Shown here piece by piece: positions 2,398-28,882 of a stretch of 34,586 nucleotides of DNA (its first letter is position 1; each line of letters begins with the position of its first letter). The position numbers and the translations under genes were made by a program. The DNA comes from a virus: positions 1 to 34,586 of IMG/VR virus record IMGVR_UViG_3300042507_002537; one strand, 5' to 3'. The notes beneath the pieces were generated by a model. The model had not been told where the DNA came from, ran no database searches, and saw only the letters and a list, made by a program, of their open reading frames with translations.

Positions 2398-3582
2398 ATG
2401 TCTGAATACATTAAACAACAGCACGAAGCACGTCAAAAGTCTTGGGCAGAAGCCAAAGAACTTCTTGATGTAGCAGCAGCAGAAAAGCGCGATTTAACTG
2501 CTGAGGAAAATGCAAAATACGAACGTATTTCTGCTGACCTAGATTCACGCGCAAAGGTAATCGAAACCTTAAAAGCAGATGCAGATCGCGAACTTCGCGC
2601 TGCTGAAGCAATGAGAGGCGCAGAAAACCAAGCACGTCCAGTTGCAGAAGTACGCAACGAAAAAGATGACGCAGAAGCAATCCGTGCTATGGCACGTGGT
2701 GAAATCCGCTCATACGATTTCGAAAAACGTGATGTAACTAAGGGTTCAACTGGTTCACCAGTTCCAACTTCTTTCTACGATCAAGTTATCTTGCTTGCTA
2801 GAACAGTTGGCCCAATGCTAGAAACCTCAACCATCTTGAACACAGCAGGTGGCGAAAACCTACAAATTCCATCATTGAGTGCATACTCAACTGGAACTGT
2901 AACTTCAGAGGGCAACGCAATCGGAGAATCTGACCCAACATTCAACTCTTTCGTAACTCTTGGTGCATTCAAGTACTCATTCTTGACCCAAGTTTCACGT
3001 GAATTGATTGAAGATGCTGGTGTGGATATTCTTGGATTCCTTGCTGCACAAACAGGTAACGCAATGGGTTACGCAGTAAACGAAGCCTTAACAGTAGGCA
3101 CAGGAACAGTACAACCAAACGGAATTGTAAACCGTGCAGGTTCTGCTGTAACTGGAACTGCATTAAATCCAACTGCTGATAACTTGATTGATCTTGTTTA
3201 CAGCATTGACACAATGGGTCGTAGACTTCCTGGAACTGGTTTCCAAATGAACTCTGCATCTATTGCTAACGTGCGTAAGTTGAAAGATAATGCTGGACAA
3301 TACTTGTTCACACCATCTCTTTCAGCAGATGCTCGCGACTTACTACTTGGTTATCCAATATTCGAAAACCCAGCAATGGCTTCAGCAGCATCAGCAGCCA
3401 AGCCTGTGATTTTCGGTAACTTGCCAAGTTACTACGTTCGCCAAGTTGGTGGATTGAAATTAGATCGTTCAGATGATTTTGCTTTCTCATCTGATTTGGT
3501 AACTTTCCGTGCAACATTCCGTGTTGATGGAAACCTAATTCAAACAAGCCACGTTAAATACTTCAAATCAAGCAACTCCTAA
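2398..3582 (+). CDS. Major capsid protein, HK97 fold
   Basis: A 394-residue protein with a strong ribosome-binding site (ATAAGGAGATTCAGTA before ATG 2398). Residues 1 to about 110 are a charged Ala/Glu/Lys-rich coiled coil (QQHEARQKSWAEAKELLDVAAAE), the HK97-type delta/scaffold domain expected to be removed by the protease upstream. The rest matches the phage_capsid family: VPTSFYDQVILLART, LQIPSLSAYS, FKYSFLTQVSRELIED near the E-loop/spine helix region, and a C-terminal DDFAFSSDLVTFRATFRVDG strand. Codon choice is richer in C-ending codons (AAC, TTC, CGC) than in its neighbours, which fits very high expression. Confidence 0.95.
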   Translation: MSEYIKQQHEARQKSWAEAKELLDVAAAEKRDLTAEENAKYERISADLDSRAKVIETLKADADRELRAAEAMRGAENQARPVAEVRNEKDDAEAIRAMARGEIRSYDFEKRDVTKGSTGSPVPTSFYDQVILLARTVGPMLETSTILNTAGGENLQIPSLSAYSTGTVTSEGNAIGESDPTFNSFVTLGAFKYSFLTQVSRELIEDAGVDILGFLAAQTGNAMGYAVNEALTVGTGTVQPNGIVNRAGSAVTGTALNPTADNLIDLVYSIDTMGRRLPGTGFQMNSASIANVRKLKDNAGQYLFTPSLSADARDLLLGYPIFENPAMASAASAAKPVIFGNLPSYYVRQVGGLKLDRSDDFAFSSDLVTFRATFRVDGNLIQTSHVKYFKSSNS

Positions 3583-3604
3583 TCCGAGTCTGATTTGAAC
3601 AATC

Positions 3605-3638
3605 GTCTGGGACACGGAGCGCAGGCCGTGTCTCAGAC
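3605..3638 (+). other. Strong hairpin 1 after the capsid gene
   Basis: GTCTGGGACACGG (3605-3617) pairs with CCGTGTCTCAGAC (3626-3638): 13 bp with one G-T pair and an 8-base loop. No T tract follows, so it is not a classical intrinsic terminator. It could protect the 3' end of capsid mRNA, act as a processing site, or work as a factor-dependent terminator. Confidence 0.7.
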
Positions 3639-3645
3639 ATAAATC

Positions 3646-3673
3646 GTCTCCCATCTGTAATAAGGTGGGAGAC
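3646..3673 (+). other. Strong hairpin 2 after the capsid gene
   Basis: GTCTCCCATCT (3646-3656) pairs with AGGTGGGAGAC (3663-3673): 11 bp with one T-G pair and a 6-base loop GTAATA. It lies seven bases after hairpin 1 and about 25 bases before the glycosyltransferase start. The pair likely separates high capsid expression from low expression of the glycan cassette (inference). Confidence 0.7.
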
Positions 3674-3698
3674 ACCTGCGTACATATGGAGTCTCTGC

Positions 3699-4970
3699 GT
3701 GAATCGTGAACAAAGACGTTCTTTAGAAAAACAAATTAAAAAAGTACAAAATGTTGTACAACACCCAAGACGAATTCTTTGGGTATCTAATGCACCTTGG
3801 GCTGCAACTGGTTATGGTCAGCAAACTGCTCAAGCAATTACAAGACTTAAAGCAGATGGCAATGATGTTGCTGTTGCATCAAATTATGGTTTAGAAGCAT
3901 CTGCAACTATTTGGAATTCTCCTGCTGGAACTATTCCTGTTTACCCACGTGGAATGGATATGTGGTCAAATGATGTTATTCCTGCACATATGCACGACTG
4001 GTCAAGACGTGATTTAGATGCAGAACATTTGTTGATGACTTTGTTTGATGTTTGGGTTTTCAAAGGTGAGAAGTGGGCTGAATGGCCTGTTGCTTCTTGG
4101 ACTCCTATTGATCACGTTCCTGCACCACCTGAAGTTGCTTCTTGGTCTCGTTTACCATTTGTTTATCCAATTGCTATGAGCAAGTTCGGTAAAGATATGT
4201 TAGAAAATGTTGGAATTGAATCTTGGTATGTTCCTCACGCAATAGAAAAAGTTTTCAAACCAACTAAAAGTTTTACAACACCAAATGGTGATGTAATTAC
4301 TGGTCGCGAGTTTATGAAGATTAGTGAAGATAAATTTGTTGTTGGTATGAACGCAGCGAACAAAGGTGTCACACCTATTCGTAAAGCCTTTGGTGAAAAT
4401 CTTTTAGCGTTCTCAATGTTTGCTAAAAAATATGATGATGCTGTTTTGTATATACATACTGATCCATCTGGTTCTATGGGTGGTATCAGAATGAATGATT
4501 TGATTTTGTCTTGTGGTATTCCACCTGAGAAAGTTATTTTCCCTGATCCTTATTTATTGCGTTCAGGAATCAATCAAGAAATTCTTGCATCAATATATTC
4601 TGGAATGGATGTTTTGTTATCGACAAGTATGGGTGAGGGATTTGGTATTCCAACAGTTGAAGCGCAAGCGTGTGGTGTTCCTGTTATTGTTTCTAATTTT
4701 GCTGCTTCTACTGAACTTTGTGGTGATGGTTGGAAAATCGGTGGGCAACCTTATTGGGATGCGCCGCAGAAGTCTTGGTTTCATATTCCATCTGTTCCAG
4801 AAATAGTTGATGCCTTAGTTCAGTCGTATAACAAAGGTCGCGGAGTTTCAGAAAAGGCTATCGAATTCGCTAAGCAATATGATGCCGATTTTGTGTTTGA
4901 AACTCAATGGAAACCTACTTTGGACAGCATATTTGCAAGAGTGGCTTCTGATAGGCCTAAAACAGCCTAA
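3699..4970 (+). CDS. Glycosyltransferase, family GT4-like (GT-B fold)
   Basis: A 423-residue protein from GTG 3699, preceded by GGAG. After a basic N-terminal helix, RRILWVSNAPWAATGYGQQ is the Gly-rich start of a GT-B N-terminal domain. The C-terminal half carries the retaining-transferase signature GEGFGIPTVEAQACGVPVI (about residues 311-330), with the E-x7-E type pair that binds the nucleotide-sugar donor. It would transfer a sugar to a glycan, protein or lipid acceptor in the cytoplasm. It is the first gene of a cassette with GT2, radical SAM and cytidylyltransferase genes directly after the capsid gene. Virion or host-surface glycan modification is inferred; donor and acceptor cannot be told from the sequence. 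Confidence 0.88.
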   Translation: MNREQRRSLEKQIKKVQNVVQHPRRILWVSNAPWAATGYGQQTAQAITRLKADGNDVAVASNYGLEASATIWNSPAGTIPVYPRGMDMWSNDVIPAHMHDWSRRDLDAEHLLMTLFDVWVFKGEKWAEWPVASWTPIDHVPAPPEVASWSRLPFVYPIAMSKFGKDMLENVGIESWYVPHAIEKVFKPTKSFTTPNGDVITGREFMKISEDKFVVGMNAANKGVTPIRKAFGENLLAFSMFAKKYDDAVLYIHTDPSGSMGGIRMNDLILSCGIPPEKVIFPDPYLLRSGINQEILASIYSGMDVLLSTSMGEGFGIPTVEAQACGVPVIVSNFAASTELCGDGWKIGGQPYWDAPQKSWFHIPSVPEIVDALVQSYNKGRGVSEKAIEFAKQYDADFVFETQWKPTLDSIFARVASDRPKTA

Positions 4971-5011
4971 AAGGGCAAAATTAGCGAAGTTAGTGATTGG
5001 GGATAAGTAAG

Positions 5012-5662
5012 TTGATACCTGCAATGATTGTGCCTGTTTTAACACGCTATGACCTCTTAGACAGAATGATTGGGTCAATTAACTACGCAGTTAAAGATTT
5101 AGTCATCATTGACAATGGGGCAAAGCAATCTGATTGGTCACCAACTTGGAATCAATGGGTGTCAAAGATTTGGCATCTGAAGTTTCCTAGCAATCTTGGT
5201 GTTCCTGTTTCTTGGAATCTTGGAATCAAATCACTTCCACAATCTGATTACTGGTTGATTGCTAACTTTGATATTGAATGGAATGGAGATTCGTTAAAAC
5301 TGTTCGCTGAACAATCAAATCCTGACACTTTACTTCTTTCAAATGGAAGCCCAGAATGGTGTGCTTTTTCTTTAGGATCAAAAATTGTAGAAAAAGTTGG
5401 TTTATTTGATGAATCTTTTGTTCCAGCCTATTTTGAGGACACAGACTACGAACGTAGAGCAGAATTTAATGGTTGCAAAATTGTTCATTCATTCATTCCT
5501 GTCGCTCACGAAAATTCATCTACACTAAAAGCAGGTTTTCAAAAAGAAAACGATTTAAGTTTTTCAGCAAACGAACAATATTTTTCTCAAAAAAGACAAA
5601 ATCAAGATTTTTCTGAGGGAAAATGGGACATTAAACGTAGGAGAAGATTAAGTTGGGATTAA
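5012..5662 (+). CDS. Glycosyltransferase, family GT2-like (GT-A fold)
   Basis: About 216 residues. I place the start at TTG 5012, behind GGGGA (4999-5003); TTG 4997 and ATG 5024 are alternatives. GT2 features are visible in order: the N-terminal strand IVPVLTRYDLLDRMIGSI, LVIIDNGA, NLGVPVSWNLGIK, the metal-binding-type IANFDIEW, and the late acidic motif YFEDTDYERRAEFNG typical of the base region in rhamnosyl/galactosyl-type transferases. It is compact compared with most GT2 enzymes. It overlaps the next gene by 10 bases, so it is translated with the radical SAM gene. Substrates unknown. Confidence 0.85.
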   Translation: MIPAMIVPVLTRYDLLDRMIGSINYAVKDLVIIDNGAKQSDWSPTWNQWVSKIWHLKFPSNLGVPVSWNLGIKSLPQSDYWLIANFDIEWNGDSLKLFAEQSNPDTLLLSNGSPEWCAFSLGSKIVEKVGLFDESFVPAYFEDTDYERRAEFNGCKIVHSFIPVAHENSSTLKAGFQKENDLSFSANEQYFSQKRQNQDFSEGKWDIKRRRRLSWD

Positions 5663-6594
5663 ATTCAGTTTTTATTCACGAATCAGCAATAAAACGCAGA
5701 TCATCTTTTGATTATGAACAAGTTGATGCAAAATTTACACCTAATTGGAACGAAAAACGTAATTCTGCTGATGGAATCTTAAAATCTTTTGAGGATGTTC
5801 TTTTAAGACTTGAATCAACTAATCATTGCAACTTCGCTTGTACTTTTTGCCCTCATCCAACAATGGAACGTGATAAAGGTTTTATGGATGAAACTCTCAT
5901 CAAGAAACTTCTTGATGATGCCGCAGAACTAGGTTTCAAAATGCTTGATTTGCGTAATTTTGGTGAACCAATTATGGATAAGCGTCTTGCAAGTTTTGCT
6001 AAGTATGCAAGAAGTGTTGGTTTTACAAAAATTTATATTCACACTAACGGTTGGCCTTTAACAGCGAAACGTTTAGATGAATGGGGTGAAGCAGGAATCA
6101 CGGATGTAAACCTCAGCCTTTCACCTAAGAGAGAGTTCAGCGAAACAAGACCTGGTATTCCTGTTGAAAAGTATTTTGCCAACATTGAAAAACTTATTGC
6201 AGATAAACCTCAATACTTAAATGTTTTAAGCGTTGATTACATTCGAACAGGTTTATCAAATGAAATAGAAGAAAAAGAATTCAAGGACTGGTTGGCTTCA
6301 CTAAATATCCCTAAACGTATTGATATTGAATTACATAACTGGGCTGTTGGTGAAGATTCTTCTCATTATCGTTGTCACAGGCTTTGGTCAAGTGTGACTG
6401 TTCTTTGGGATGGAACTGTTGCTTTATGTTGTTTAGATTATGAGGGTGATTACAACCTTGGTGATGTTAAATCTTTAAGTTTGAAAGACCTTGTTAATAG
6501 TCCTCTTTATGTTGAGATAAGAAAGAACCATTCTGAGGGCAAGTTTCTTTCTAAGTGTGCTTCTTGCGATATGCCTAAACAAAAGGATTTGTAA
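5653..6594 (+). CDS. Radical SAM/SPASM-type enzyme
   Basis: A 313-residue protein, TTG start at 5653 with AGGAGA upstream. The radical SAM cluster motif is C59-x3-C63-x2-C66 (HCNFACTFC), which would hold the [4Fe-4S] cluster that cleaves S-adenosylmethionine. NFGEPIM resembles the GGEP SAM-binding motif with N in place of the first G. The C-terminal region (CHRLW, WDGTVALCCLDYEGDYNLGDV, SKCASCDM) is SPASM-like and may bind auxiliary clusters. SPASM enzymes modify peptides or sugars. Within a glycosyltransferase cassette, a sugar- or virion-protein-modifying role is inferred. Substrate unknown. Confidence 0.88.
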   Translation: MGLNSVFIHESAIKRRSSFDYEQVDAKFTPNWNEKRNSADGILKSFEDVLLRLESTNHCNFACTFCPHPTMERDKGFMDETLIKKLLDDAAELGFKMLDLRNFGEPIMDKRLASFAKYARSVGFTKIYIHTNGWPLTAKRLDEWGEAGITDVNLSLSPKREFSETRPGIPVEKYFANIEKLIADKPQYLNVLSVDYIRTGLSNEIEEKEFKDWLASLNIPKRIDIELHNWAVGEDSSHYRCHRLWSSVTVLWDGTVALCCLDYEGDYNLGDVKSLSLKDLVNSPLYVEIRKNHSEGKFLSKCASCDMPKQKDL

Positions 6595-7019
6595 TGGCTT
6601 TACGTGTTTATACTGGCGGAACTTTTGATCTATTTCACGCAGGTCATATTAACTTTTTGAAACGCTGTGCTGAGATTGCAGGTATCGGTGGAACTGTAAC
6701 TGTGTCCTTGAATACAGATGAATTCATTTTTGAATACAAAAAAACAACACCTATTTTGAATTATCAAGAACGCTTTGTTGTTTTGGATGCTTGCAAGTTT
6801 GTAAATTTTGTTGTTCCTAATATTGGTGGTGCTGATTCAAAACCTGCGATTGAGGATTGCAAACCTGATGTGATTGCTATTGGTTCTGATTGGGCTAGAA
6901 AAAATTATTACAAGCAGATGCAATTTGATCAAGATTGGTTGGATGAAAGAAATATTAGTTTAATTTACATTCCTTACACTAAAGGGATTTCTAGTACGTT
7001 AATTAAACAAAAAATATGA
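6594..7019 (+). CDS. Cytidylyltransferase-like nucleotidyltransferase (TagD/GCT family)
   Basis: A 141-residue protein that starts on the last base of the upstream stop (TAATG). It has YTGGTFDLFHAGHINFLKR, with the nucleotidyltransferase HxGH motif (H15-H18), and the C-terminal GISSTLIKQ, equivalent to the ISSTxIR motif. Family members activate glycerol-3-phosphate, ribitol/erythritol phosphate or heptose phosphates as CDP/ADP derivatives. The length is typical of glycerol-3-phosphate cytidylyltransferases. In this cassette it probably supplies an activated polyol or sugar to the glycosyltransferases. Confidence 0.87.
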   Translation: MALRVYTGGTFDLFHAGHINFLKRCAEIAGIGGTVTVSLNTDEFIFEYKKTTPILNYQERFVVLDACKFVNFVVPNIGGADSKPAIEDCKPDVIAIGSDWARKNYYKQMQFDQDWLDERNISLIYIPYTKGISSTLIKQKI

Positions 7020-7528
7020 TTGTTGTTGGAACAACGCCAGGTCGAGAGAATTGGTTGGCACAATGTTTGGCTTCTATTAAAAGACCAGTTCTAGTCTTAT
7101 CTGATTTTACTTTTGAGTTAGGTAAGTTTAATTGGATTATGCAAAACACAAAAATTGAGCGTTTTATGTATTTAGCCGATTCAGTTGTGGTTAAAGATGA
7201 CCGACTTTTTGAGATGCTAGATGAACAAGGTTCTATTGCTTTTAGTAGTGACCCTGGTATTTATGGAATGTATTTAGGTATTTATGAACGCAAGGTTTTA
7301 GAACAGATTGATATTCCTTACCCTAAAGATAAAAAAGAGGTTATTGAATTTGAATTGTCTTGGACTCAAAAGTATGCTCAGGTTGCAAAGAATGTGCGTA
7401 TTGCTTTTGATAACTTGACTGATGCCAAGTCTAAAAGGAAAGAAGTATTATTTGGACGTAATAACCTTGTTTTGGAGAATGATTTTCTCATCAAATATAA
7501 AGGGCATTGGGGTCAGCAAGTAGTCTAA
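7016..7528 (+). CDS. Compact GT-A glycosyltransferase-like protein
   Basis: A 170-residue protein in ATGA overlap with the cytidylyltransferase. The N-terminus (VVGTTPGRENWLAQCLASI) and the segment FMYLADSVVVKDDRLFEML resemble the first strand/helix and the donor-site region of GT2-like enzymes, but no clear DxD or ED catalytic motif is present. It may be a truncated transferase, a partner subunit or a divergent enzyme. Assignment to the glycan cassette rests mainly on tight coupling to the upstream genes. Confidence 0.5.
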   Translation: MIVVGTTPGRENWLAQCLASIKRPVLVLSDFTFELGKFNWIMQNTKIERFMYLADSVVVKDDRLFEMLDEQGSIAFSSDPGIYGMYLGIYERKVLEQIDIPYPKDKKEVIEFELSWTQKYAQVAKNVRIAFDNLTDAKSKRKEVLFGRNNLVLENDFLIKYKGHWGQQVV

Positions 7529-7554: not shown

Positions 7555-8160
7555 TTGGCTATCACAAACGGCTATGCCTCACTCAACGAAGTGAAAGCGG
7601 CCTTACGGATAACAGACTCGATTGACGATTCTCTTTTGGAGATGGCAATTGAATCTGCATCAAGACTTATAGACGGTTATGCCGCACGCCAATTTTATTC
7701 ATCTGGAACTGCTACAAGATACTTTGTTGCTCAAGATGATTTCGTTGTTGAAGTAGACGATCTTGCAAACGGAACTGTAACTATTACAACAGCGCAAGAT
7801 GCTGATGGTGTTTTTGATACAACTTGGGGAACTGACGATTACCAACTTGAGCCGCTGAATGGTGTTCTTGATGGCATTCCTTGGCCTTATACAACTATCC
7901 GTGCTGTTGGTGATTACTTGTGGCCTATTGAGGGCGGAGAAGCGTTAATCAAAGTTCAAGGAACTTATGGTTGGCCATCTGTACCTATTGCAATTAAACA
8001 GGCTTGCGTTATTCAGTCATCAAGAATTTACAAACGTTTAGACAGCCCTCTTGGTGTCGCTGGATTCGGTGACCTAGGTGCAATTAGAGTTTCATCACAA
8101 CTTGATCCTGATGTTGCACAACTTGTTATGCCTTACAGAAGATTAAGAAACTTCATTTAA
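7555..8160 (+). CDS. Head-tail connector (adaptor), HK97 gp6-like
   Basis: A 201-residue protein from TTG 7555 with TTAGGAG upstream. The N-terminal helices (LNEVKAALRITDSIDDSLLEMAIESASRLIDGYAARQF) match the phage_connect/gp6-like adaptor family, which forms the ring below the portal. The central part is beta-rich and ends in an Arg-rich helix (LVMPYRRLRNFI). This is the first gene after the glycan cassette and resumes the normal head-to-tail gene order, so the cassette looks inserted between capsid and connector genes. Confidence 0.78.
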   Translation: MAITNGYASLNEVKAALRITDSIDDSLLEMAIESASRLIDGYAARQFYSSGTATRYFVAQDDFVVEVDDLANGTVTITTAQDADGVFDTTWGTDDYQLEPLNGVLDGIPWPYTTIRAVGDYLWPIEGGEALIKVQGTYGWPSVPIAIKQACVIQSSRIYKRLDSPLGVAGFGDLGAIRVSSQLDPDVAQLVMPYRRLRNFI

Positions 8161-8567
8161 TGGCATCCGTATCCTCAATTAGAACTGGTCTTGCAACAAG
8201 ACTTGGAACTATCACAGGTTTAAGAACTTCAGCATTTATGCCTGACAATCCAAATCCACCTATCGCTGTTGTTATGCCATCAAGTGTTTCCTATGATGAT
8301 GTTTTCAAAAGAGGTATGCAAACTTACGTTTTCAATGTCCTTGTCATTGTTGGCAGGGTAGATGAAAGAACTGCGCAATCAAATCTTGATGCCTATGTTT
8401 CAAGCACAGGCAACTCAAGCATCAAAAGAGCAATTGAGGGTGACAAAACTCTTGGCGGAGTTGTGTTCGATACAAGAGTGACTGAGATGAGAAACTACGG
8501 CCAATTGATAGTTTCTGAGGTAACATATCTAACAGCAGAGTTTACAGTTCTTTGCTACGCAGACTAG
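8160..8567 (+). CDS. Putative tail terminator/neck protein
   Basis: A 135-residue protein starting on the TAATGG overlap. The pattern (short N-terminal helix SSIRTGLATRLGTI, beta strands PPIAVVMPSSVSY and TYVFNVLVIVGRVDER, a helix with RAIEGD, then a long strand toward the C-terminus) fits tail terminator proteins (gpU/gp10-type) that cap the tail tube. Its position just before the tail tube gene supports this. Sequence evidence alone is weak. Confidence 0.6.
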   Translation: MASVSSIRTGLATRLGTITGLRTSAFMPDNPNPPIAVVMPSSVSYDDVFKRGMQTYVFNVLVIVGRVDERTAQSNLDAYVSSTGNSSIKRAIEGDKTLGGVVFDTRVTEMRNYGQLIVSEVTYLTAEFTVLCYAD

Positions 8568-8580
8568 GAGTAATAACACA

Positions 8581-8991
8581 ATGCCAAAATTCGCTGCAAC
8601 CGACTATGATGTCAAAATCAATGGTTCAGATTTTTCAACAACTCTGAATTCAGTTGAATTGTCACAAGAGGCTGACGATTTAGAAACAACCGCTTTCGGT
8701 TCTTCTTGGAGAACTAGAATCGGTGGATTAAAACAAGCATCATTAACACTTAACTTTATGCAAGATTTTGCAGCAGGTTCAGTTGATGCAACACTTAACC
8801 CATTATTAGGATCGATTGCAACAGTTGTAATCAAACCTACAAGTGGAACAGTAACTGCAACAAACCCAACTTACACAATGACAGCATTGGTAACCCAATA
8901 CTCACCATTCGCATCAAGCGTTGGCGATATTGCTACACTTTCTGTTACTTGGCCTGTATCTGGCTCAGTAGTTCGTGGAACTGCTGCGTAA
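8581..8991 (+). CDS. Major tail (tube) protein
   Basis: A 136-residue protein with an AGGAG site 10 bases before ATG 8581. It is beta-rich and opens with YDVKINGSDFSTTLNSVELSQEADDLETTAFG, the typical start of short actinophage/HK97-like tail tube subunits, where the ETTAFG turn recurs. It also has WRTRIGGLKQASLTLNFMQDF and ends in a TLSVTWPVSG strand. It is followed directly by tail assembly chaperones and the tape measure, the expected order. It would stack as hexamers to form the tail tube. Confidence 0.82.
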   Translation: MPKFAATDYDVKINGSDFSTTLNSVELSQEADDLETTAFGSSWRTRIGGLKQASLTLNFMQDFAAGSVDATLNPLLGSIATVVIKPTSGTVTATNPTYTMTALVTQYSPFASSVGDIATLSVTWPVSGSVVRGTAA

Positions 8992-9007
8992 TTAAAAAAG
9001 GAAACAA

Positions 9008-9259
9008 ATGAAAATCAACCTGCGCGTGAATTACAATGATGGTAATTCTAAAGAAATAGTTTGTTCAGCAAGAGACTTAGTTGCGTTTGAAGAAAAGTAC
9101 AGCAGGTCAGTAGCAAAACTCGAATCAGAGTTCAAACTTACTGATCTGCTTTTTCTTGCTTGGCATTCTGAGAAAAGAACCAATGCAACTAAAAAAGAAT
9201 TTGATAATTGGTTAGATGAAGTTGATGAAATTGGTGTTAGCGACTCAGACCCAAAATAA
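9008..9259 (+). CDS. Tail assembly chaperone, short form (gpG-like)
   Basis: An 83-residue protein with an AAGGAAAC site before ATG 9008. It is acidic/helical in the second half (LTDLLFLAWHSEKRTNATKKEFDNWLDEVDEI), as in gpG-like chaperones that coat the tape measure during tail assembly. It stops at TAA 9257-9259 immediately after a CCCAAAA heptamer, so it is also the 5' part of a frameshifted product. Confidence 0.85.
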   Translation: MKINLRVNYNDGNSKEIVCSARDLVAFEEKYSRSVAKLESEFKLTDLLFLAWHSEKRTNATKKEFDNWLDEVDEIGVSDSDPK

Positions 9260-9414
9260 AGCCGCTCGGAGAAAACTCTGAGCATTGGTATATTGCTTAT
9301 TTGGCTTGTGAGACTGGGATTGCTCCCTCTTTGCTTTTACAAGAGTCTGACCGTATGCTTTTCACATTAGGAATGTACTTGCGTTGGAAAGCATCCGAAC
9401 AAAATAAGAGGTAA
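9008..9414 (+). CDS. Tail assembly chaperone, frameshifted long form (gpGT-like)
   Basis: A -1 slip on CCCAAAA (9250-9256) lets translation bypass the TAA at 9257 and continue in the -1 frame (ATA at 9256-9258, AAG, CCG...) for 52 codons to TAA 9412-9414. The product is about 135 residues. The added part, containing HWYIAYLACETGIAP and MLFTLGMYLRWKASEQNKR, is the typical T domain of actinophage chaperones and has no start codon context of its own. The G:GT ratio controls tail assembly in known siphophages. Confidence 0.88.
9250..9256 (+). promoter_or_regulatory. -1 ribosomal frameshift site CCCAAAA
   Basis: A canonical X-XXY-YYZ slippery heptamer, read C CCA AAA in the zero frame, directly abuts the TAA stop of the gpG-like gene. 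The -1 frame continues open into the conserved T domain. Whether a downstream structure stimulates slipping was not established; the following bases contain only short self-complementary stretches. Confidence 0.88.
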
Positions 9415-9416
9415 TT

Positions 9417-9977
9417 GTGGCTATTGGACTTTCAACTGAAGTTCGTGGTTTACGTGAAACTCTAATAGAAATTAAAGCATTAGATAAAACTTTATATGAT
9501 CAGTTAAATTCTGATATCAAAAATGCTTCTTTACCTTTCGCTAAAGGCATTGAGAATGCTTTACCTAAATCTGTTCCTCTAACTGGTTTTACCCATAGTG
9601 GCGCTACTGCTTTCAAATCATCTGATAATAAAACTGAAGTTAAAACTGGTAGAAAAAAACCCAGAGGCAATACACCAACAGCATTATTGAAAGTTGTTGT
9701 TAAAGGTCGTGGGTTGGCTATTGTTGATATGGCTGGTCGTAAGAAAACTACTGGTCGTTCATCTGGTCGTTCTAAACCATCTGGTCGTAGGCCAACTGGT
9801 TACAGATTGAATGGTCAAGGCACAGCATTGATTCGTAATTTGAATAACATTCACAAAGCATCTCGCTTTGTTTGGCCTGCCGCTTTGAAAAATCAGAATT
9901 TGATTGATAATAGTATTGAACGTTCTTTACAAGAAGCATCAGCGAAAGTAAACAGAAACTTATTGGTGGTTAAATAG
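9417..9977 (+). CDS. Basic tail-completion-like protein
   Basis: A 186-residue protein from GTG 9417, two bases after the frameshifted chaperone stop. The N-terminus (RGLRETLIEIKALDKTLYDQLNSDIKNASLPFAKGIENALP) and the C-terminal SRFVWPAALKNQNLIDNSIERSLQEA resemble HK97 gp10-like minor tail/tail-completion proteins. The middle is very basic, with a Gly/Arg/Ser run (GRKKTTGRSSGRSKPSGRR). In most HK97-like phages such a gene precedes the tail tube; here it lies between chaperones and tape measure. Function inferred. Confidence 0.5.
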   Translation: MAIGLSTEVRGLRETLIEIKALDKTLYDQLNSDIKNASLPFAKGIENALPKSVPLTGFTHSGATAFKSSDNKTEVKTGRKKPRGNTPTALLKVVVKGRGLAIVDMAGRKKTTGRSSGRSKPSGRRPTGYRLNGQGTALIRNLNNIHKASRFVWPAALKNQNLIDNSIERSLQEASAKVNRNLLVVK

Positions 9978-12304
9978 TGGCAATTATTGTCCCGATTCTC
10001 ACGCAATTTGATGACAAAGGAATCAAGTCTGCTGTTAGAGAGTTTGAGAGAGCCAAAACTACTTTAGGTAAATTTGGTGCTATTGGTGATGGTTTCAAAG
10101 CAATTGGAACAAGCCTCACAAAAAATGTGACAGTTCCGCTGGCTGTTGCAAGTGCTGGTATTTACAAACTTGTTCAAGCAGGATCAACACTTCAAGAATC
10201 TATGTCCAAAACCAATGCTGTTTTTGGTGCTAACGCGCAAGCAGTTCAAAATTGGTCTAAAACTACAAGCACAGCATTTGGTGTTTCACAACAGCAAGCA
10301 CTTGAGGCCGCTGGAACTTACGGAAACCTTTTCAGAGCATTCGGTCTTGGTTCTAAGCAAGCACAAGATATGTCTACAAGACTTGTTGAACTTGCAGCAG
10401 ATATGGCTTCTTTCAACAACGTTCCAATTGATGACGCATTGGTTGCTTTACGTTCAGGTCTTTCAGGTGAAACTGAACCATTAAAACGTTTTGGCGTTGC
10501 CCTTAATGAAGTAAGACTTAAAGAGGAAGCGTTAAGACTTGGTTTAATTACAACCACTTCTGGAACATTACCAATTGCAATTAAAACGCAAGCGGCCTAT
10601 TCGTTAATCCTTAAAGACACAGCATTACAGCAAGGAGACGTTGCAAGAACTTCTGGTGGGTTTGCTAACCAAATGAAGTTTTTACAAGCAGAAGTTTCTA
10701 ACGTTAAAGCACAAATTGGAACTGCTTTACTCCCAGTTGTACTTCAATTTGTTGATGTTTTAAGAAAAGATGTTATTCCTTTAGTTCAACGTTTTGCTGA
10801 TTTTATGACAAGTTTGAGTCCTAAAGTTATTGAAGTCGGTCTTAAAATTGGTTTATTTGTTGCAGCAGTCGGACCTTTATTATTTATCTTTGGAAGTTTA
10901 ATTGGTTCGATAAAAACATTTATTGAAGTTTTCAAAATACTTAATCTAACCTTTTTATTGAGTCCAGTTGGTTTAGTGATCGCAGGTCTTGTTGCCTTAT
11001 CAATAGTTGTTATCAGGGCTTGGAAAACTTCTGACACATTCCGTCAAGGAATAGCAAAACTAGGAAACGCATTTATTGGATTCGTTGAGGGCGCAATAAA
11101 CTATGCAATCAAAGGTTTGAACTTCTTTATTCAAACTATCAATAAAGTGATCAGAGGCTTGAAGTTCTTTGGTGTAGATATTGAAGAAATCGGTGAAATT
11201 TCAGAAGTTGCTTTTGGTCGCTTATCTTTCAGCGCAGTTGAAGCCAAAAACTCTATGGGTGCTTTAGCAGCACAAACAGACACTTTAGGTATGAATGTTG
11301 CTGATCAAGTTGTTCCTGCTATTGATGATATGAACCAAGGATTAAACGAATCTTCTACTGCTATGGGTAAGGCTAAAGATGCTGCAAAGAGTGCGGCTCA
11401 AGCAATTGTTGATAATCTTGAAGATTCTTTACGTAAAGCAGAATCAGCCCTTGAAGATATAAAAGGTAAATTTAATGATTTCAAAGGTGCAATCGGAAAT
11501 ACAATTACAGGAATTTTAGATTTTGGCAAAGCAGCAGAATCTGAAGATTTCTTAAAAGGTTTAGCAGATCAAGCAACTAAAGCAACTTTGTTTGCTGACA
11601 AAGTTAAACAACTTGTTGTTCTTGGTTTGAATGAACGCGCTATTCGTCAAGTTTTGGATGCAGGTTTTGATGCTGGTTCAAAGATTGCTGACAGCATTAT
11701 TATTGGTGGTTCAACTGTTGTTGAGCAAATAAATACTCTTGTTGATTCTGTGTTTACCGTTGCTGACCAAGTTGGTGAATTCGGTGCTGTCGCTTTTTAT
11801 GATGCTGGTGTTAAGCAAGCAGAGGCAATGGTTGCTGGCATTAAAGCCGCTTTAGATTCAGCACGCGCTGAACTTAAATCTTTAGTCGATACTTTGCCTA
11901 CTGGTCCATCTGCTCCATCTGGCCCTGCTGTTCCTGGAACACCAAATGTTGAGAAACCACCTGTAACACGTAAACCTTTATTGACAGTTAATCAAATTGC
12001 AACTATTGGAAAACTTCCTGATCCAGCGTCACGTCATTACACAGCCTTAGCAACAGCGTTACAAAATAAAACTATTCGTATGGCAAAGGGTGGAATTGTT
12101 ACAGGCCCAACTAATGCTCTTATTGGTGAAGCAGGACCTGAAGCAGTTATTCCTTTGAGTGGTAAAAATGCTGGAATGGGAAGCACCTACAACATAACCG
12201 TTAATGCTGGTATCGGAACAAACGGTGCGCAAGTAGGTAGAGACATTGTTGAAGCAATCAGAAAATATGAACGCACCTCTGGTCAAGTGTTTGTGAGAGT
12301 CTAA
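9977..12304 (+). CDS. Tape measure protein
   Basis: A 775-residue protein, GTG start overlapping the upstream TAG. It begins with IVPILTQFDDKGIKSAVREFERAKTTLGKFG, common in actinophage tape measures, then a long helical region. Hydrophobic membrane-type segments lie around residues 285-350 (KIGLFVAAVGPLLFIFGSL, LSPVGLVIAGLVALSIVVI). It ends with the familiar KGGIVTGPTNALIGEAGPEAVIPLSG module. By the usual 0.15 nm per residue the tail would be roughly 115 nm (inference). It sets tail length and probably helps genome entry. Confidence 0.93.
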   Translation: MAIIVPILTQFDDKGIKSAVREFERAKTTLGKFGAIGDGFKAIGTSLTKNVTVPLAVASAGIYKLVQAGSTLQESMSKTNAVFGANAQAVQNWSKTTSTAFGVSQQQALEAAGTYGNLFRAFGLGSKQAQDMSTRLVELAADMASFNNVPIDDALVALRSGLSGETEPLKRFGVALNEVRLKEEALRLGLITTTSGTLPIAIKTQAAYSLILKDTALQQGDVARTSGGFANQMKFLQAEVSNVKAQIGTALLPVVLQFVDVLRKDVIPLVQRFADFMTSLSPKVIEVGLKIGLFVAAVGPLLFIFGSLIGSIKTFIEVFKILNLTFLLSPVGLVIAGLVALSIVVIRAWKTSDTFRQGIAKLGNAFIGFVEGAINYAIKGLNFFIQTINKVIRGLKFFGVDIEEIGEISEVAFGRLSFSAVEAKNSMGALAAQTDTLGMNVADQVVPAIDDMNQGLNESSTAMGKAKDAAKSAAQAIVDNLEDSLRKAESALEDIKGKFNDFKGAIGNTITGILDFGKAAESEDFLKGLADQATKATLFADKVKQLVVLGLNERAIRQVLDAGFDAGSKIADSIIIGGSTVVEQINTLVDSVFTVADQVGEFGAVAFYDAGVKQAEAMVAGIKAALDSARAELKSLVDTLPTGPSAPSGPAVPGTPNVEKPPVTRKPLLTVNQIATIGKLPDPASRHYTALATALQNKTIRMAKGGIVTGPTNALIGEAGPEAVIPLSGKNAGMGSTYNITVNAGIGTNGAQVGRDIVEAIRKYERTSGQVFVRV

Positions 12305-14160: not shown

Positions 14161-14985
14161 ATGTCTGCAATCAGATTAGGTAACACTAAAAATGGTGTAC
14201 CAAAATATTCTAATTTTGCAACCAACGGCAGTCTTACTATTGCTATGGATTATGTTGTAGTCGCTGGTGGTGGTGGCGCTGCATTTACAGGTATTACTGG
14301 TTCGCGTGGTGGTTCAGGTGCAGGTGCTGGTGGTTATTTAGCAGGTACTGCTACTGCTTTTCCACGCAAGTTTTCAATTACTGTTGGCGCTGGTGGTGGA
14401 AATAAAGTCGCTGGTTCTAATTCGGTTTGTAGCACTTTTACTGCTGTCGGTGGTGGTGCAGGTGTAGAACAAGCAAATGCTGGAAATGCTGGTGGTTCTG
14501 GTTCAGGTGCAGGTGATTCATCTGGTGCATTATCAGGTGGTGCAGGAACTTCTGGTCAAGGTAACGCTGGTGGAAGTATCCCAGGTTCAAGTTCAAATGG
14601 TGGTTCTGGTGGCGGTGGTGGTGGCGCTGGTGGCGCTGGTGCTGTTGGAGTTACAAATGGTGGTTCAGCCCGACCTGCTGGTGGTACTGGTGTAAGTAAT
14701 TCAATTACTGGAACTTCTGTAACTTACGCTGTTGGTGGATCAGGTGGTTCACAAAACGCTGGTGCTGCTGCTCCAGCAACAAATGCTGCAAAAGGTTCTG
14801 GTGGAAATGGACCTGATGGTAATAGTGGTACAGGTACAGCAGGTAGAGAGGGAATTGTAATTCTTAAATATCCTAGTACTTACACATTTACAGCAGGCGC
14901 TGGTTTAACTTTCACTTCTGCTACTGCTGCAGGTTTTACTGTGACACAATTTACTGCTGGAAGCGATACTGTGGAGTTTATCTAA
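14161..14985 (+). CDS. Glycine-rich adhesin 1 (putative receptor-binding protein)
   Basis: A 274-residue protein starting right after the upstream TAA. The N-terminus, RLGNTKNGVPKYSNFATNG, leads to a very Gly-rich core (about 50-220) of GG/GGG clusters separated by short Ala/Ser/Asn segments, ending GTAGREGIVILKYPS. A C-terminal beta module carries FTVTQFTAGSDTVEFI. Gly-rich cores like this form polyglycine-II sandwiches in known phage adhesins, with variable loops binding the receptor. The core glycines are mostly GGT. The next gene is a paralogue, so this is likely part of host recognition. Confidence 0.78.
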   Translation: MSAIRLGNTKNGVPKYSNFATNGSLTIAMDYVVVAGGGGAAFTGITGSRGGSGAGAGGYLAGTATAFPRKFSITVGAGGGNKVAGSNSVCSTFTAVGGGAGVEQANAGNAGGSGSGAGDSSGALSGGAGTSGQGNAGGSIPGSSSNGGSGGGGGGAGGAGAVGVTNGGSARPAGGTGVSNSITGTSVTYAVGGSGGSQNAGAAAPATNAAKGSGGNGPDGNSGTGTAGREGIVILKYPSTYTFTAGAGLTFTSATAAGFTVTQFTAGSDTVEFI

Positions 14986-15797
14986 TGGGTGTCATTAGAT
15001 TAAGTGAAGTAAATCAAAAAGTTAAATACACAAATTTTGCAGCAAACTTTCCTTTTATTCGTCTTGTTGAAGTTTTAGTTGTTGGTGGTGGTGGTGGTAC
15101 ACAAAACGCTGTTGCTGGTGCTCGAGGCGAAGGTGGCGCTGGTGGTGGTGGCGTAATTAGTGGTAACGCATTTCTTCCAAAAAGATTTTTGGTAACTGTT
15201 GGCGCTGGTGGTACTGGTGGTGCTTCATCTACTAATGGTTCTAATTCTGTTTGTAATACTCTTACTGCTTTTGGTGGTGGAAGAAGTATCACAACTTCAT
15301 CTGGAGCAAATGGTGGTTGTGGCGCTGGAGCAAGTGATGCTAGTGCTATGAATTTTGGTGGTAACAGCACCTCAAGTCAAGGTAACGCAGGTGGAAGTAA
15401 AACAACAAGTGGTAATGATGGTGGCGCTGGCGCAGGTGGTGGTGGTGGTGGTGGTGCTGGACAATCCGTTATTACAACAAGTGCAACAGGTGGCTTAGGT
15501 GGCACACCTTTTATGAGTTCAATTACAGGTTCACCTGTTAATTATTCAAAAGGTGGAAATGGTGGCAATGCTACTGGTGGGGGAACAACCTCAGTAGATA
15601 CAATTCTTGGTTCAGGTGCTAATGGGCCAAATGGTTCAGGAACTGGAACAGCAGGTCGTGTAGGTGTTGTAATTCTTAAATACCCAGTAAGGTTTGCTTT
15701 ATCTGTTGGTGCTGGTTTAACTTCATCCACCACAACTTCAGGTGATTTCAAAGTAACACAATTCACAGCAGGTTCAGATTTTGTGGAGTTTATATAA
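14985..15797 (+). CDS. Glycine-rich adhesin 2 (paralogue)
   Basis: A 270-residue protein in TAATGG overlap with adhesin 1 and of the same architecture: RLSEVNQKVKYTNFAAN at the N-terminus, a Gly-rich core, GTAGRVGVVILKYPV, and a C-terminal module ending FKVTQFTAGSDFVEFI. The ends match adhesin 1 closely while core segments differ in length and sequence, consistent with tandem duplication followed by divergence of the receptor-binding loops. Whether both are on one virion or used alternatively is unknown. Confidence 0.78.
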   Translation: MGVIRLSEVNQKVKYTNFAANFPFIRLVEVLVVGGGGGTQNAVAGARGEGGAGGGGVISGNAFLPKRFLVTVGAGGTGGASSTNGSNSVCNTLTAFGGGRSITTSSGANGGCGAGASDASAMNFGGNSTSSQGNAGGSKTTSGNDGGAGAGGGGGGGAGQSVITTSATGGLGGTPFMSSITGSPVNYSKGGNGGNATGGGTTSVDTILGSGANGPNGSGTGTAGRVGVVILKYPVRFALSVGAGLTSSTTTSGDFKVTQFTAGSDFVEFI

Positions 15798-19493: not shown

Positions 19494-19613
19494 GTGAATC
19501 CTGCGCTCATCTTTCAAGGAATTCTTTTAATTATTCTTGGAATCGCTGGTTTCATTACCGTTTTATATAACTTCAAACGATATTGTGATCTCACCGAGAA
19601 AGAGGACAAATGA
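19494..19613 (+). CDS. Tiny single-TM protein, 39 aa
   Basis: GTG 19494 opens VNPALIFQGILLIILGIAGFITVLYNF, one membrane segment with a charged cytoplasmic tail (KRYCDLTEKEDK). The ribosome-binding site is poor. The stop TGA is in ATGA overlap with the next gene, which is good evidence that the frame is used. Function unknown; it may accompany the lysozyme-like gene. Confidence 0.5.
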   Translation: MNPALIFQGILLIILGIAGFITVLYNFKRYCDLTEKEDK

Positions 19614-21504: not shown

Positions 21505-21794
21505 ATAGATCAAAAGTTGCATCAAATCTTGTTAAGATGACTTGGTTACGTGACCATCCAGCGTTAGCAACAACTGATTTAGATATTAACCAAATCGATT
21601 GGAAAACAATTGACAAGTTTGAATGGAATCGCACTCAACTTGTTTTAATTGAGATTCTTCGTTTCATTAACTGTGGTGAATCATTGATGCGTTTATCTGA
21701 AATCAATCTTTTGTCACCAGATGAAAAGCGCATTGTGGCTTTATCAATCAATATGTTGTATAACGATTTAGGTTTGGAAGAAAACCTTGTCTAA
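21501..21794 (+). CDS. Unknown helical protein, 97 aa
   Basis: ATG 21501 overlaps the RHH stop. The protein contains TWLRDHPALATTDLDINQIDWKTIDKFEWNRTQLVLIEILRFINCGESLMRLSEI and a helical C-terminus (SPDEKRIVALSINMLYNDLGL). No motif recognised. Its end overlaps the methyltransferase start by 8 bases, making one operon of RHH, this gene and the methyltransferase. Confidence 0.65.
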   Translation: MNRSKVASNLVKMTWLRDHPALATTDLDINQIDWKTIDKFEWNRTQLVLIEILRFINCGESLMRLSEINLLSPDEKRIVALSINMLYNDLGLEENLV

Positions 21795-23053
21795 TTTAAC
21801 TGCTGTCAGCCTATTCGCTGGTGTGGGTGGATTTGATTTGGCTCTTACAAGAGCAGGTGTCAAAGTCGTTGCAGCAGTTGAGATTGACAAAAAATGCCGA
21901 GAAGTTTTGGCGTTGCAGTTTCCAGAAACAAAACTATTTGATGATGTTAAAGGAGTAACAGGTGAACAACTTAGAGCAGCAGGATTTGTTCCAGAACGAG
22001 GAATTATCACAGCAGGATTCCCTTGCCAAGACCTCAGCATTGCAGGACTTCGTAAAGGATTGGCTGGATCGCGAAGTGGATTATTCTGGGAAATTATCAG
22101 AATCATTGATGAAACACACGCAGAGCAAATTATCCTCGAAAATGTTGCTGGCCTCTTGTCATCTCAATCAGGACAAGATATGGGAATCATCATCACAGCG
22201 TTGGTCGAACGCGGGTATGGCGTTTGCTGGAGAGTGTTGGACTCTCAAAACTTCGGAGTCCCACAGCGGCGCAGACGAGTGTTCATTGTCGCAAGTCGTG
22301 GAGACCACAGGAGACCTGTCGAAATATTATTTGAGCCCGATAGCAGCAGCAGGTATCTTGAGGAGAGCGGGAAAAAGAGGGAAAGAGTTGCCGCTGAAAC
22401 TGAAAGAAGCCTTAATGAAAATTGCGGAGAACTAATCATTCCAATTCACGATAAAGCAACAAGATTTAATGGTAAACGTGGAGATAAAAATGATGGGTCT
22501 GGAAATGGATTAGGGATTGGAAAATTAGGTGATCCTATGAATACTCTTACTACTAATGATAGACATTCAGTTTTCATTGAAACCGCAACTTTGCTTCGTA
22601 TGCGTGGTGGCAAAGATGGGGGGGGGGAAAGGTGCTCTAGTGTCTGAAGATAAATCTCTAACTATTGCAACTGGGAATGATCAAACTTTATTTTTGTTCC
22701 AATGCAATCGAAAAGATGATACAAGAATTCATAACGAAGTTTCACCAACTTTAGGTTGTTATGTTGGTAGTATTCCGCTGGCATTTGCACAAAAACAATC
22801 TCATTCACAATACAAACTTGACGATAAAAGTTCGACATTAACTCAGCGGGATTACAAATCTTTTGCAGATATTGTTATCGAACCAGTTGTTAGACGTTTA
22901 ACACCAAAAGAATATGAAAGATTACAAGGGTTTCCTGATGATTGGACTGCTTCTCAGCCAAATTCATCAAGATACAAAATGATGGGTAACGCTGTTTCAG
23001 TACCTGTTGTTGAGTGGATTATTAAACGTATGGTAAAACTTATATCTGAGTGA
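21787..23053 (+). CDS. DNA (cytosine-5) methyltransferase, frameshifted at a G10 tract
   Basis: TTG 21787 begins SNLTAVSLFAGVGGFDLAL (motif I). GFPCQDLSIAG (motif IV, catalytic Cys), ENVAGLL (VI) and QRRRRVFIVA (VIII) follow. The zero frame then stops at 22645-22647, but motifs IX-X (RRLTPKEYERLQGFPDDW, YKMMGNAVSVPVVEWI) continue in the +1 frame to TGA 23051-23053. The frames meet at ten Gs (22618-22627). Nine Gs would restore one 421-residue enzyme, ...GGKDGGGKGALVSEDK.... The break is in the target-recognition region, so as written the protein lacks motifs IX-X and should be inactive. It methylates cytosine in a specific site, probably against host restriction. Confidence 0.88.
21962..22435 (+). 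CDS. Overlapping gene nested in the methyltransferase, +1 frame, 157 aa
   Basis: GTG 21962 follows AAAGGAG with a short, near-ideal spacer. The frame (+1 to the methyltransferase) stays open for 157 codons and ends at TAA 22433-22435. The C-terminus, CWTLKTSES...CSLSQVV followed by YYLSPIAAAGILRRAGKRG and KELPLKLKEALMKIAE, matches a recurring pattern I know from phage proteins annotated beside or within C5 methyltransferase genes: (F/Y)LSxxAxxGILRRAxKRGxxLPxxL. Function unknown. It is either a true dual-coded protein or an echo of conserved methyltransferase coding. The RBS and pattern favour translation. Confidence 0.55.
   Translation: MNNLEQQDLFQNEELSQQDSLAKTSALQDFVKDWLDREVDYSGKLSESLMKHTQSKLSSKMLLASCHLNQDKIWESSSQRWSNAGMAFAGECWTLKTSESHSGADECSLSQVVETTGDLSKYYLSPIAAAGILRRAGKRGKELPLKLKEALMKIAEN
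22618..22627 (+). repeat. G10 homopolymer in the methyltransferase
   Basis: Ten consecutive Gs in an A+T-rich genome, exactly where the methyltransferase frame breaks. A tract of nine would join the two frames. Either a slipped-strand ON/OFF switch or a sequencing/assembly length error. Confidence 0.9.
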
Positions 23054-25348: not shown

Positions 25349-25658
25349 GGGAACAAAGATTTGCTCTGAGGGTTGCCCTAATCCAGACGATTGGCAAAAT
25401 TCTGCTGCTTGTTTAGACAAGAATCCTGAAATGTTTTTTTGTGAAGCAGATGACGTTCCTGCAATCAAGGCCGCTATAAGAGTTTGTTTATCTTGTGATG
25501 TCAGAGGCTTCTGCTTAACTGATGGTTGGGATAATAAACACGGAATTTGGGGAAGTTTTACTGCTGATGAGCGACAGAGATTAAGGAAAGCGTTTCCTAT
25601 GCCTAATGATCCTAAACATAAAAGAAAAGTTATTAGAGTGATTGCGCACCGTTTATGA
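25317..25658 (+). CDS. WhiB-like Fe-S transcription factor
   Basis: I choose GTG 25317, placed 7 bases after GAGGAA, giving 113 residues; TTG 25302 is possible. The [4Fe-4S] ligands fit the family: C32, C57-x2-C60-x5-C66 (AACLDKNPEMFF, VCLSCDVRGFC). The following DGWDNKHGIWGSFTADERQRLRK is the WhiB G[VI]WGG turn with S for G, and a basic tail. WhiB proteins are confined to Actinobacteria and their phages, so this is the best host marker here. It may bind the host principal sigma factor and alter transcription. Confidence 0.9.
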   Translation: MLKDCSHPVIEGTKICSEGCPNPDDWQNSAACLDKNPEMFFCEADDVPAIKAAIRVCLSCDVRGFCLTDGWDNKHGIWGSFTADERQRLRKAFPMPNDPKHKRKVIRVIAHRL

Positions 25659-28387: not shown

Positions 28388-28882
28388 ATGAATGACCTGC
28401 GAATTGTAAAAGTTAAAATAAGCCAATTGCAATCTGATCCTGATAATGCGCGTAAACATAGCGATAAGAACATTGATGCAATCGTTGGTTCTTTGAAAAG
28501 GTTTGGTCAAAGGAAACCAATTGTGGTTACTGGTGCAAACATTGTGATTGCTGGTAATGGAACTTTGACTGCTGCTAAGAAACTTGGTTGGTCTGAGATT
28601 GTTGTTGCTTACACTCCGAGTGATTGGACCTTTGAGCACGCACGCGCTTATGCTTTGGTTGATAATAGAACTGCTGAACTTGCTGAGTGGGATAACGACA
28701 AACTTGCTATGCAACTGATTGAATTAGATTCTGTTGGTTGGGAATTAGATGATGTTGGGTTTGAGAAACTTGAACCACCAATGGAAGAATTGAAAGACAA
28801 GAAATCCGCTTGGGTTGATTGTGATGATTGTGGGCGAAAGGTTTTGAATAAAGACAATGAGCAATCCACCGAAACCGATTGA
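28388..28882 (+). CDS. ParB/sulfiredoxin-like domain protein
   Basis: A 164-residue protein behind AGTAGGATGGTTTT. VKISQLQSDPDNARKHSDKNIDAIVGSLKRFGQRKPIVV and IVIAGNGTLTAAKKLGWSEIVVAY make up the ParB N-terminal nuclease/CTPase-like fold (GNGTLTAAKKLG for the GERRxxA motif). VDNRTAELAEWD follows as in phage forms. The C-terminus has a CDDCGRKV knuckle. In actinophages this gene precedes the terminase and may act in packaging or DNA modification. Overlaps the next gene by 26 bases. Confidence 0.85.
   Translation: MNDLRIVKVKISQLQSDPDNARKHSDKNIDAIVGSLKRFGQRKPIVVTGANIVIAGNGTLTAAKKLGWSEIVVAYTPSDWTFEHARAYALVDNRTAELAEWDNDKLAMQLIELDSVGWELDDVGFEKLEPPMEELKDKKSAWVDCDDCGRKVLNKDNEQSTETD

Follow-up and report, generated by a model that had tools for sequence, protein, structure and literature searches.

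Why would a tailed phage keep five glycan-type genes between its capsid and connector genes, and what sets their output relative to that of the shell? The question is raised by a 34,586-base virus record, IMGVR_UViG_3300042507_002537 of IMG/VR, referred to here as the window; position numbers refer to the whole record. In tailed phages, the proportioning of capsid, tail and accessory enzymes in late operons has largely been ascribed to promoters, terminators and ribosome-binding strength. The late genes of the window are co-directional. Terminase (29278), portal (30950), protease (287) and capsid (2398) are followed by the five-gene set, then by the connector (7555), tail terminator (8160), tail tube (8581, assigned from position), gene 9008 and tape measure (9977). 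The set consists of a GT4-family glycosyltransferase (GT4), a GT2-like glycosyltransferase (GT2), a radical SAM enzyme, a cytidylyltransferase-like nucleotidyltransferase (CyT) and a small protein predicted to be a glycosyltransferase (GTx). On balance, we favour a modular and virion-directed cassette, with the loop of a hairpin in the capsid message pairing at the GT4 and 9008 starts, probably to repressive effect.

Scans of IMG/VR with the capsid, connector, CyT and radical SAM proteins gave 136 loci with both flanks, the window included, and 95 distinct islands. The 65 distinct complete islands counted below are those recovered via the capsid or connector scans. Note that the scans give the nearest 80 relatives. 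Hence, counts such as 65/65 and 2/65 hold for close kin, not for phages at large. A search of GenBank for closely similar phage DNA found none. The window carries a WhiB gene (25392-25583), fitting the expectation for an actinophage.

A capsid hairpin loop and its complement at the GT4 start

The elements between the capsid and GT4 genes are as follows.

2398-3582, plus strand: major capsid protein (HK97 fold), 5' flank of the island and source of the 3' untranslated region (UTR) hairpin (PF05065, 5.8e-55; phrog_10)
3605-3638, plus strand: RNA hairpin 1, after the capsid stop codon, with a 13-bp stem and loop AGCGCAGG at 3618-3625 (minimum free energy fold; covarying stem)
3646-3673, plus strand: RNA hairpin 2, loop GUAAUA, only in the window's freshwater clade (5/10 pairs changed on both sides)
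3675-3680, plus strand: CCTGCG, complement of the hairpin 1 loop, 24 nucleotides upstream of the GT4 start
3695-3699, plus strand: CTGCG, second loop complement, touching the GTG start of GT4
3699-4970, plus strand: GT4-family (GT-B) glycosyltransferase, first island gene (PF00534, PF13692, phrog_2170)

The 116-nucleotide gap between capsid and GT4 folds into two hairpins, with a minimum free energy z of -3.66 against shuffles (computed on 3583-3712). The stems covary: 8 pairs are doubly changed, with 14 double-changed cells, a result reached in 0/500 shuffles. Rfam 15 covariance models, applied to the hairpin region, gave no match at the gathering threshold or at E up to 5, and promoter and terminator consensus scans of the region scored below chance. 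GT4 starts with GTG, and its ribosome-binding site, GGAG, is at 3688-3691.

Hairpin 1 is present in relatives with a variable loop, while AGCGCAGG is invariant in near relatives. In distant relatives, loop GCGTAGG is found with CCTACG at or near the GT4 start, and TGTAGGTT with AACCTAC(A). Further pairs are TCTAGGTT with AACCTAG and TTGCAGGTT with AACCTGCAA. The complement at or near the GT4 start tracks the loop over at least five loop types, and over hairpin-to-start spacings of 12 to about 550 nucleotides. The longest loop complement at GT4 averages 6.09 nucleotides; with targets shuffled the mean drops to 3.92, and with partners permuted to 5.06 (maximum 5.32). The same heptamer occurs in different GT4 reading frames (loci L196, L198 and L232). 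Hence, the constraint acts on the RNA. A U-rich tract resembling that of an intrinsic terminator follows hairpin 1 in several clades, so that the abundant capsid message would end in the loop.

The same loop covaries with the start of gene 9008

A second match lies 5.4 kb from the hairpin, in the following gene.

9008-9259, plus strand: 83-amino-acid gene between tail tube and tape measure, second predicted target (loop covariation)
9019-9025, plus strand: CCTGCGC in codons 4-6 of gene 9008, 7-nucleotide complement of the hairpin 1 loop

Gene 9008 holds the position of a tail-assembly chaperone. Its codons 4-6 read AACCTGCGC, AACCTACGC, AACCTACAA or AACCTAGTA, following the capsid loop type of the same phage. 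With G-U pairs allowed, at least 6/7 positions pair in 26 of the 29 distinct combinations of loop and codons 4-6; one or two of the 29 fall short at the edge. Five of the seven pairs are changed on both sides, and covariation is 0.360 against 0.229 when shuffled (0/500). Slid registers lose this covariation. The synonymous choice at Leu-5 follows the loop: CTG or TTG accompanies loop C, and CTA accompanies loop U, although CTG makes up 4% of Leu codons in genomes with loop C. This rules decisively against a protein-level cause.

When 21 genes were tested against permuted partners, only GT4 (z 8.4) and 9008 (z 8.8) stood out. At the other 19 gene starts there was no excess of loop complement past |z| of about 3; for GT2 (z 2.4) and portal (z 3.0) the signal is too slight to claim. 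Of the CCTGCG sites, 43% lie in start regions, which make up 5% of sequence, compared with 0-9% for foreign k-mers.

Three individual cases touch the same subject. A loop change private to L189, from GCGTAGG to GCGTAGA, is met by AATCTACGC in the 9008 homologue, a further compensatory step. In the window, an unlisted open reading frame (ORF) of 39 amino acids (19495-19613) has a GTG start and a single hydrophobic stretch, and is holin-like. Its codons 3-5 carry CCTGCGCT, the full 8-nucleotide complement of the capsid hairpin loop; we treat this as a lead only. Likewise a lead only, the start of a ParB-like gene (ATG 28388; 28388-28401) is another possible loop target, judged by comparing class A homologues alone. 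Its codons 3-5 are GACCTGCGA, and relatives keep xTG CG there.

How the loop may act, and other explanations

A conserved seed complementary to target starts, with compensatory change, is one mark of a base-pairing 3' UTR RNA, and seed and compensatory change are both found here. We read the pattern, from the sequences compared, as regulation of translation by the capsid 3' UTR through base-pairing. The loop would pair with the GT4 and 9008 starts, most likely keeping their translation low during bulk capsid synthesis. Pairing inside the ribosome footprint usually blocks initiation. GT4, with the cassette genes coupled to it, could be repressed in cis or in trans; for gene 9008 the action would be in trans. 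Both products are presumably needed at levels far below those of the capsid and tail-tube proteins, whose genes lie directly upstream. We lean, if only slightly, towards the fuller proposal that the hairpin acts in trans on the cassette and the tail-assembly gene, so that the level of capsid message sets decoration and tail output, with loop and targets having co-evolved through several specificity switches.

Several observations weigh against this interpretation. Hairpin 1 has no U-tract in the window's own clade, where the existence of a free 3'-end RNA cannot be taken for granted, and the window's loop match is just 6-7 nucleotides. Among the 95 islands, five do not fit loop-to-start pairing (L161, L205, L215, L221 and L228), and nor do three genes at the 9008 position (L158, L160 and L224). 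In phiPsal1, a cultured-host relative described below, a terminator hairpin is present at this position and a loop-to-start complement was not found. Finally, the permutation tests correct only partly for shared ancestry.

Could the pairing work in cis only? A pseudoknot might attenuate or couple GT4 translation, or shield the message from nucleases, the match in gene 9008 having a separate cause. The distance from hairpin to GT4 start is below 60 nucleotides in most genomes, and in the window's clade hairpin 2 stacks between hairpin 1 and that start, as a local structure would have it. However, pairing is kept at spacings of about 150-550 nucleotides (L157, L197, L206, L210, L217 and L222), and covariation is as strong at gene 9008, 5.4 kb away, as at GT4. 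Since a pseudoknot accounts for GT4 and not for 9008, we consider a purely cis-acting structure unlikely. Less probable still, by a clear margin, is a protein-binding DNA motif present at several sites, its specificity drifting between clades, as with the stoperators of mycobacteriophages. An asymmetric motif in opposite orientations would yield the same letters, and CCTGCG is mildly enriched in the window (14 occurrences, 5.3 expected). Against this, the motif coincides precisely with the unpaired loop of hairpin 1, whose stem covaries, while its partner is confined to the start regions of two genes, within codons 4-6 in the case of 9008. Furthermore, compensation includes changes from GC to GU (10 cells), expected of RNA pairing but not of DNA binding.

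A modular island between capsid and connector

The remaining genes of the island, and its 3' flank, are listed here.

5012-5662 (longest ORF from 4997), plus strand: GT2-like GT-A glycosyltransferase (phrog_29879, 6e-42)
5653-5662, plus strand: seam between GT2 and the next gene, TTGGGATTAA, kept across modules
5653-6594, plus strand: radical SAM enzyme, apparently Twitch-type with a single auxiliary cluster (PF04055; PF13186 over the whole profile)
6594-7019, plus strand: HxGH nucleotidyltransferase, cytidylyltransferase-like (CyT), motif IPYTKGISST (CTP_transf_like PF01467)
7016-7528, plus strand: GTx, compact 170-amino-acid protein predicted to be a GT-A-fold glycosyltransferase (predicted fold; co-occurrence with CyT)
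7555-8160, plus strand: head-tail connector, 3' flank of the island (PF05135; phrog_442)

All five ORFs are present at the coordinates proposed by an earlier sequence-only reading, between capsid (PF05065) and connector (PF05135). That reading took them for a translationally linked glycan cassette, and the overlaps of four genes bear this out: GT2 and radical SAM share 10 nucleotides, radical SAM and CyT one base (TAATG), and CyT and GTx 4 nucleotides. GT4 and GT2 are separated by 26-41 nucleotides. The likelier start of GT2 is TTG 5012, preceded by GGGGATAAG.

The same reading supposed that the cassette interrupts the usual order of capsid and connector. This is not supported: all 65/65 complete islands have GT4 directly 3' of the capsid gene, and a glycosyltransferase gene there, as also in phiPsal1, is the rule in this phage family. 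For the same reason, we rejected the idea of a recent insertion. Scattering of the genes in close relatives, looked for as a sign against a cassette, was not seen; they keep their place and order.

While the position is fixed, the content is not. The core consists of GT4 and GT2. GT2 is found in 52/65 islands, CyT in 23/65, GTx in 20/65 and radical SAM in 2/65. Alternative modules include GT2b, a second GT-A, methyltransferases, SDR epimerases, GT17 and DUF115/MptE-like genes, and there are at least 15 module combinations. GTx never occurs without CyT, once the CyT genes missed by the ORF caller in four islands are added by tblastn. Different modules are found even in phages whose capsid and connector share 95-100% identity with those of the window. 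Exchange centres on the seam, formed by the final GT2 codons, (T/A/G)TGGGA(T/C)TAA or TGA, after a purine-rich stretch. The seam is a conserved 10 nucleotides, and this end of GT2 serves any gene that follows, whether CyT, radical SAM, methyltransferase or GT2b, as the source of its ribosome-binding site and its start codon. In the window, the radical SAM gene was inserted at the seam between GT2 and CyT, a rare addition. We take the five genes to be one allele of a modular locus for glycan building, which a large family of small aquatic actinophages keeps in this place. Module swapping probably varies the sugar.

Related genes also occur elsewhere. The full GT4-GT2-radical SAM-CyT-GTx set, with GT17, lies away from the capsid gene and without the hairpin at L008 (1-3750), L009 (1322-5823), where it adjoins a C5 DNA methylase, and L010 (382-4834); judged by these copies, the set appears to move as a block. 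A second setting of radical SAM relatives, 69-72% identical, is beside a 2OG-Fe(II) oxygenase, in the vicinity of an endolysin-like gene (L011 1125-2709, L012 3233-4784, L013 8192-9743 and L014 4785-6432). These homologues overlap the end of the preceding gene (the oxygenase in L012), and tetrapyrrole-methylase-like, SDR, GT2 and NTP-transferase genes are nearby. Microcystis phage Mae-JY09 (L234; PP395641) is GC-rich and has an unrelated capsid; its GT4-GT2-SDR cassette, at 7998-10719, is flanked by the capsid and head-tail adaptor genes. It appears to be an independent case of the same cassette position.

The enzymes of the cassette

By their motifs, the enzymes look active; catalytic residues, whose loss would have spoken against the cassette, are intact in alignments of GT2, CyT and radical SAM. 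GT4 exceeds the Pfam cut-offs of PF00534 (37.3 bits, cut-off 26.4) and PF13692 (37.9, cut-off 27), with its E-x7-E motif intact (EGFGIPTVE). The GT2-like protein has no Pfam match and is recognised only through PHROGs. Its D92, D148 and H171 are invariant over 26 homologues, and the metal-binding D, (E/D)D and C-terminal H are kept.

The radical SAM protein scores 44.5 bits with PF04055 (cut-off 29.5). Its CxxxCxxC motif (C59/C63/C66) is invariant in 12 sequences, and its auxiliary cysteines, C241-x12-G-x4-C259 and C302-x2-C305, are kept in 12 homologues. SPASM proper is defined by seven cysteines, CX9-15GX4C-CX2CX5CX3C-C, binding two auxiliary clusters, and the four-cysteine arrangement is of the Twitch type (PMC6231123). 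Despite the PF13186 match, just CX12GX4C and CX2C are found here. Hence, of the earlier label radical SAM/SPASM, the first half stands and the second gives way to a Twitch assignment. The Twitch-domain enzymes BtrN (2-deoxy-scyllo-inosamine dehydrogenase), AbmM, DesII and BlsE have the same CxxxCxxC, CX12GX4C and CX2C motifs and no further SPASM cysteines. BtrN, a cyclitol dehydrogenase, and AbmM are the closest solved sequence relatives. BtrN is the top PDB sequence match and the tied-best fold (Z 15.3, 209 aligned residues; the model is of moderate quality, with a predicted local distance difference test score, pLDDT, of 68.7); identity over the aligned core is 22%. These relatives, with the rarity of the gene (2/65 islands), support the earlier view that the radical SAM gene is unusual and suggests a step in which a sugar or polyol is chemically modified. 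The enzyme may oxidise, epimerise or otherwise modify such a compound. Sequence-pattern searches of 84,980 bacterial and archaeal species genomes found no homologues, so there is no host context for its substrate.

CyT conserves HxGH and ISST-x-(I/L)-K over 21 homologues and matches TagD (E 5e-24) and the Fom1 domain (2e-19). The HxGH fold family is common to CyT and the glycerol-3-phosphate, phosphoethanolamine and Fom1-type cytidylyltransferases. We do not name CyT as TagD because the score with the glycerol-3-phosphate cytidylyltransferase model TIGR01518 is 77.4 bits, below its cut-off of 165.4, and because the C-terminal IPYTxGISST is nearer the phosphonate-type enzyme Fom1, the RTEGIST of TagD/TarD being absent. 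TagD has RTEG where CyT has YTKG. Calling CyT 'TagD-like' was thus too specific. An activated polyol, as the sequence-only reading proposed, is a possible product. CyT may activate a small phosphorylated alcohol or polyol.

GTx has no family match, and a PDB sequence search with its profile was empty up to E = 1. Its AlphaFold model is confident (pLDDT 89.7), with GT-A enzymes as top structural neighbours (TarP, Z 10.3; 6p61, Z 10.0). The model thus predicts a GT-A-fold glycosyltransferase, which probably transfers or extends the CyT product.

What the cassette decorates

The likeliest target of the glycan is the virion, probably the capsid. This destination is favoured because of the position in the structural operon, the conservation behind the capsid gene (phiPsal1 and Mae-JY09), the lack of an integrase, and the capsid and tail-tube glycans reported for mycobacteriophages. 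It is weakened by the fact that the sequence itself gives no sign of where the sugar goes. Alteration of the host cell surface during infection, by superinfection exclusion or receptor masking, is a serious rival, if a somewhat unlikely one. Such a role is commonly proposed for glycosyltransferases of aquatic phages (PMC7029224; PMC10202952), and the wall-teichoic-acid transferases TarP, TarS and RmlT are among the best structural neighbours of GTx. However, matches at Z of about 10 show the GT-A fold only. The cassette belongs to the late structural operon, where it comes immediately after the capsid gene. Of the island families examined, none was recognised as a flippase, a polymerase or another membrane export protein. 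Searches of the record for integrase and resolvase families found none, making lysogenic conversion unlikely. Glycosylation of DNA by phage enzymes occurs in other phages. For Nanopelagicales phages it has been suggested (PMC10202952), but we consider it highly improbable here. A search of the record for a thymidylate synthase or hydroxymethylase homologue found none, the genes are in the virion operon, apart from DNA metabolism, and the folds fit glycosyltransferases acting on sugars or polyol phosphates.

Two observations concern other parts of the window. A phrog_116 DNA methyltransferase lies in two overlapping frames (21787-22647 and 22556-23053), reflecting a frameshift, a split gene or an assembly error. 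Neighbouring genes of 274 and 270 amino acids in the tail region (14161-15797) both match phrog_2295, and are probably a tandem duplication.

Discussion

The Pontimonas phage phiPsal1 (MG835450) has the same island with another module: capsid (47% identity), GT4 (44%), methyltransferase, GT2 and neck. It has no CyT, GTx or radical SAM. Phage glycosyltransferases and hypervariable glycan genes are already known, and pelagimyophages have radical SAM cassettes within their host-recognition cluster (PMC7029224). In mycobacteriophages Che8 and Rita, glycans are reported on capsid and tail-tube subunits (Freeman et al. 2023, as related in PMC11256854 and PMC12619734). Like the phages studied here, these are actinophage siphoviruses that encode their own glycosyltransferases. 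In contrast, their glycosyltransferase genes are reported to lie towards the genome's 3' end (PMC11256854), rather than fixed between capsid and connector. The accounts of Che8 and Rita given in those articles describe no radical SAM and cytidylyltransferase set, and no RNA control linked to the capsid; here, we infer a virion glycan from the genes.

Small base-pairing RNAs derived from bacterial 3' UTRs, such as SdhX, are known. Phage 3' UTR RNAs have likewise been described (PMC8545117), and phage small RNAs have been reviewed (PMC12197685). As with SdhX and the 3' UTR non-coding RNA of phiKZ (PMC8545117), a regulatory loop would end an abundant mRNA and have its targets at translation starts. 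Unlike those examples, a phage capsid message is joined to the phage's own glycan cassette and tail gene, covarying over many phages. A literature search, with most subscription journals outside it, found no capsid 3' UTR loop co-evolving with the starts of other late genes.

The polymorphic glycan locus, with modules exchanged at one seam, resembles a phage counterpart of serotype loci. If the virion is its target, the locus would provide many chemistries for modifying virions, among them a rare radical SAM step. The several loop-specificity types that exist in nature are suited to swaps. A co-evolving RNA loop through which the capsid message is tied to two other late genes would, if correct, add a new layer of control. 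The production of coat, shell and tail would then be coupled, through the capsid hairpin, in a virus of lake and sea bacteria.

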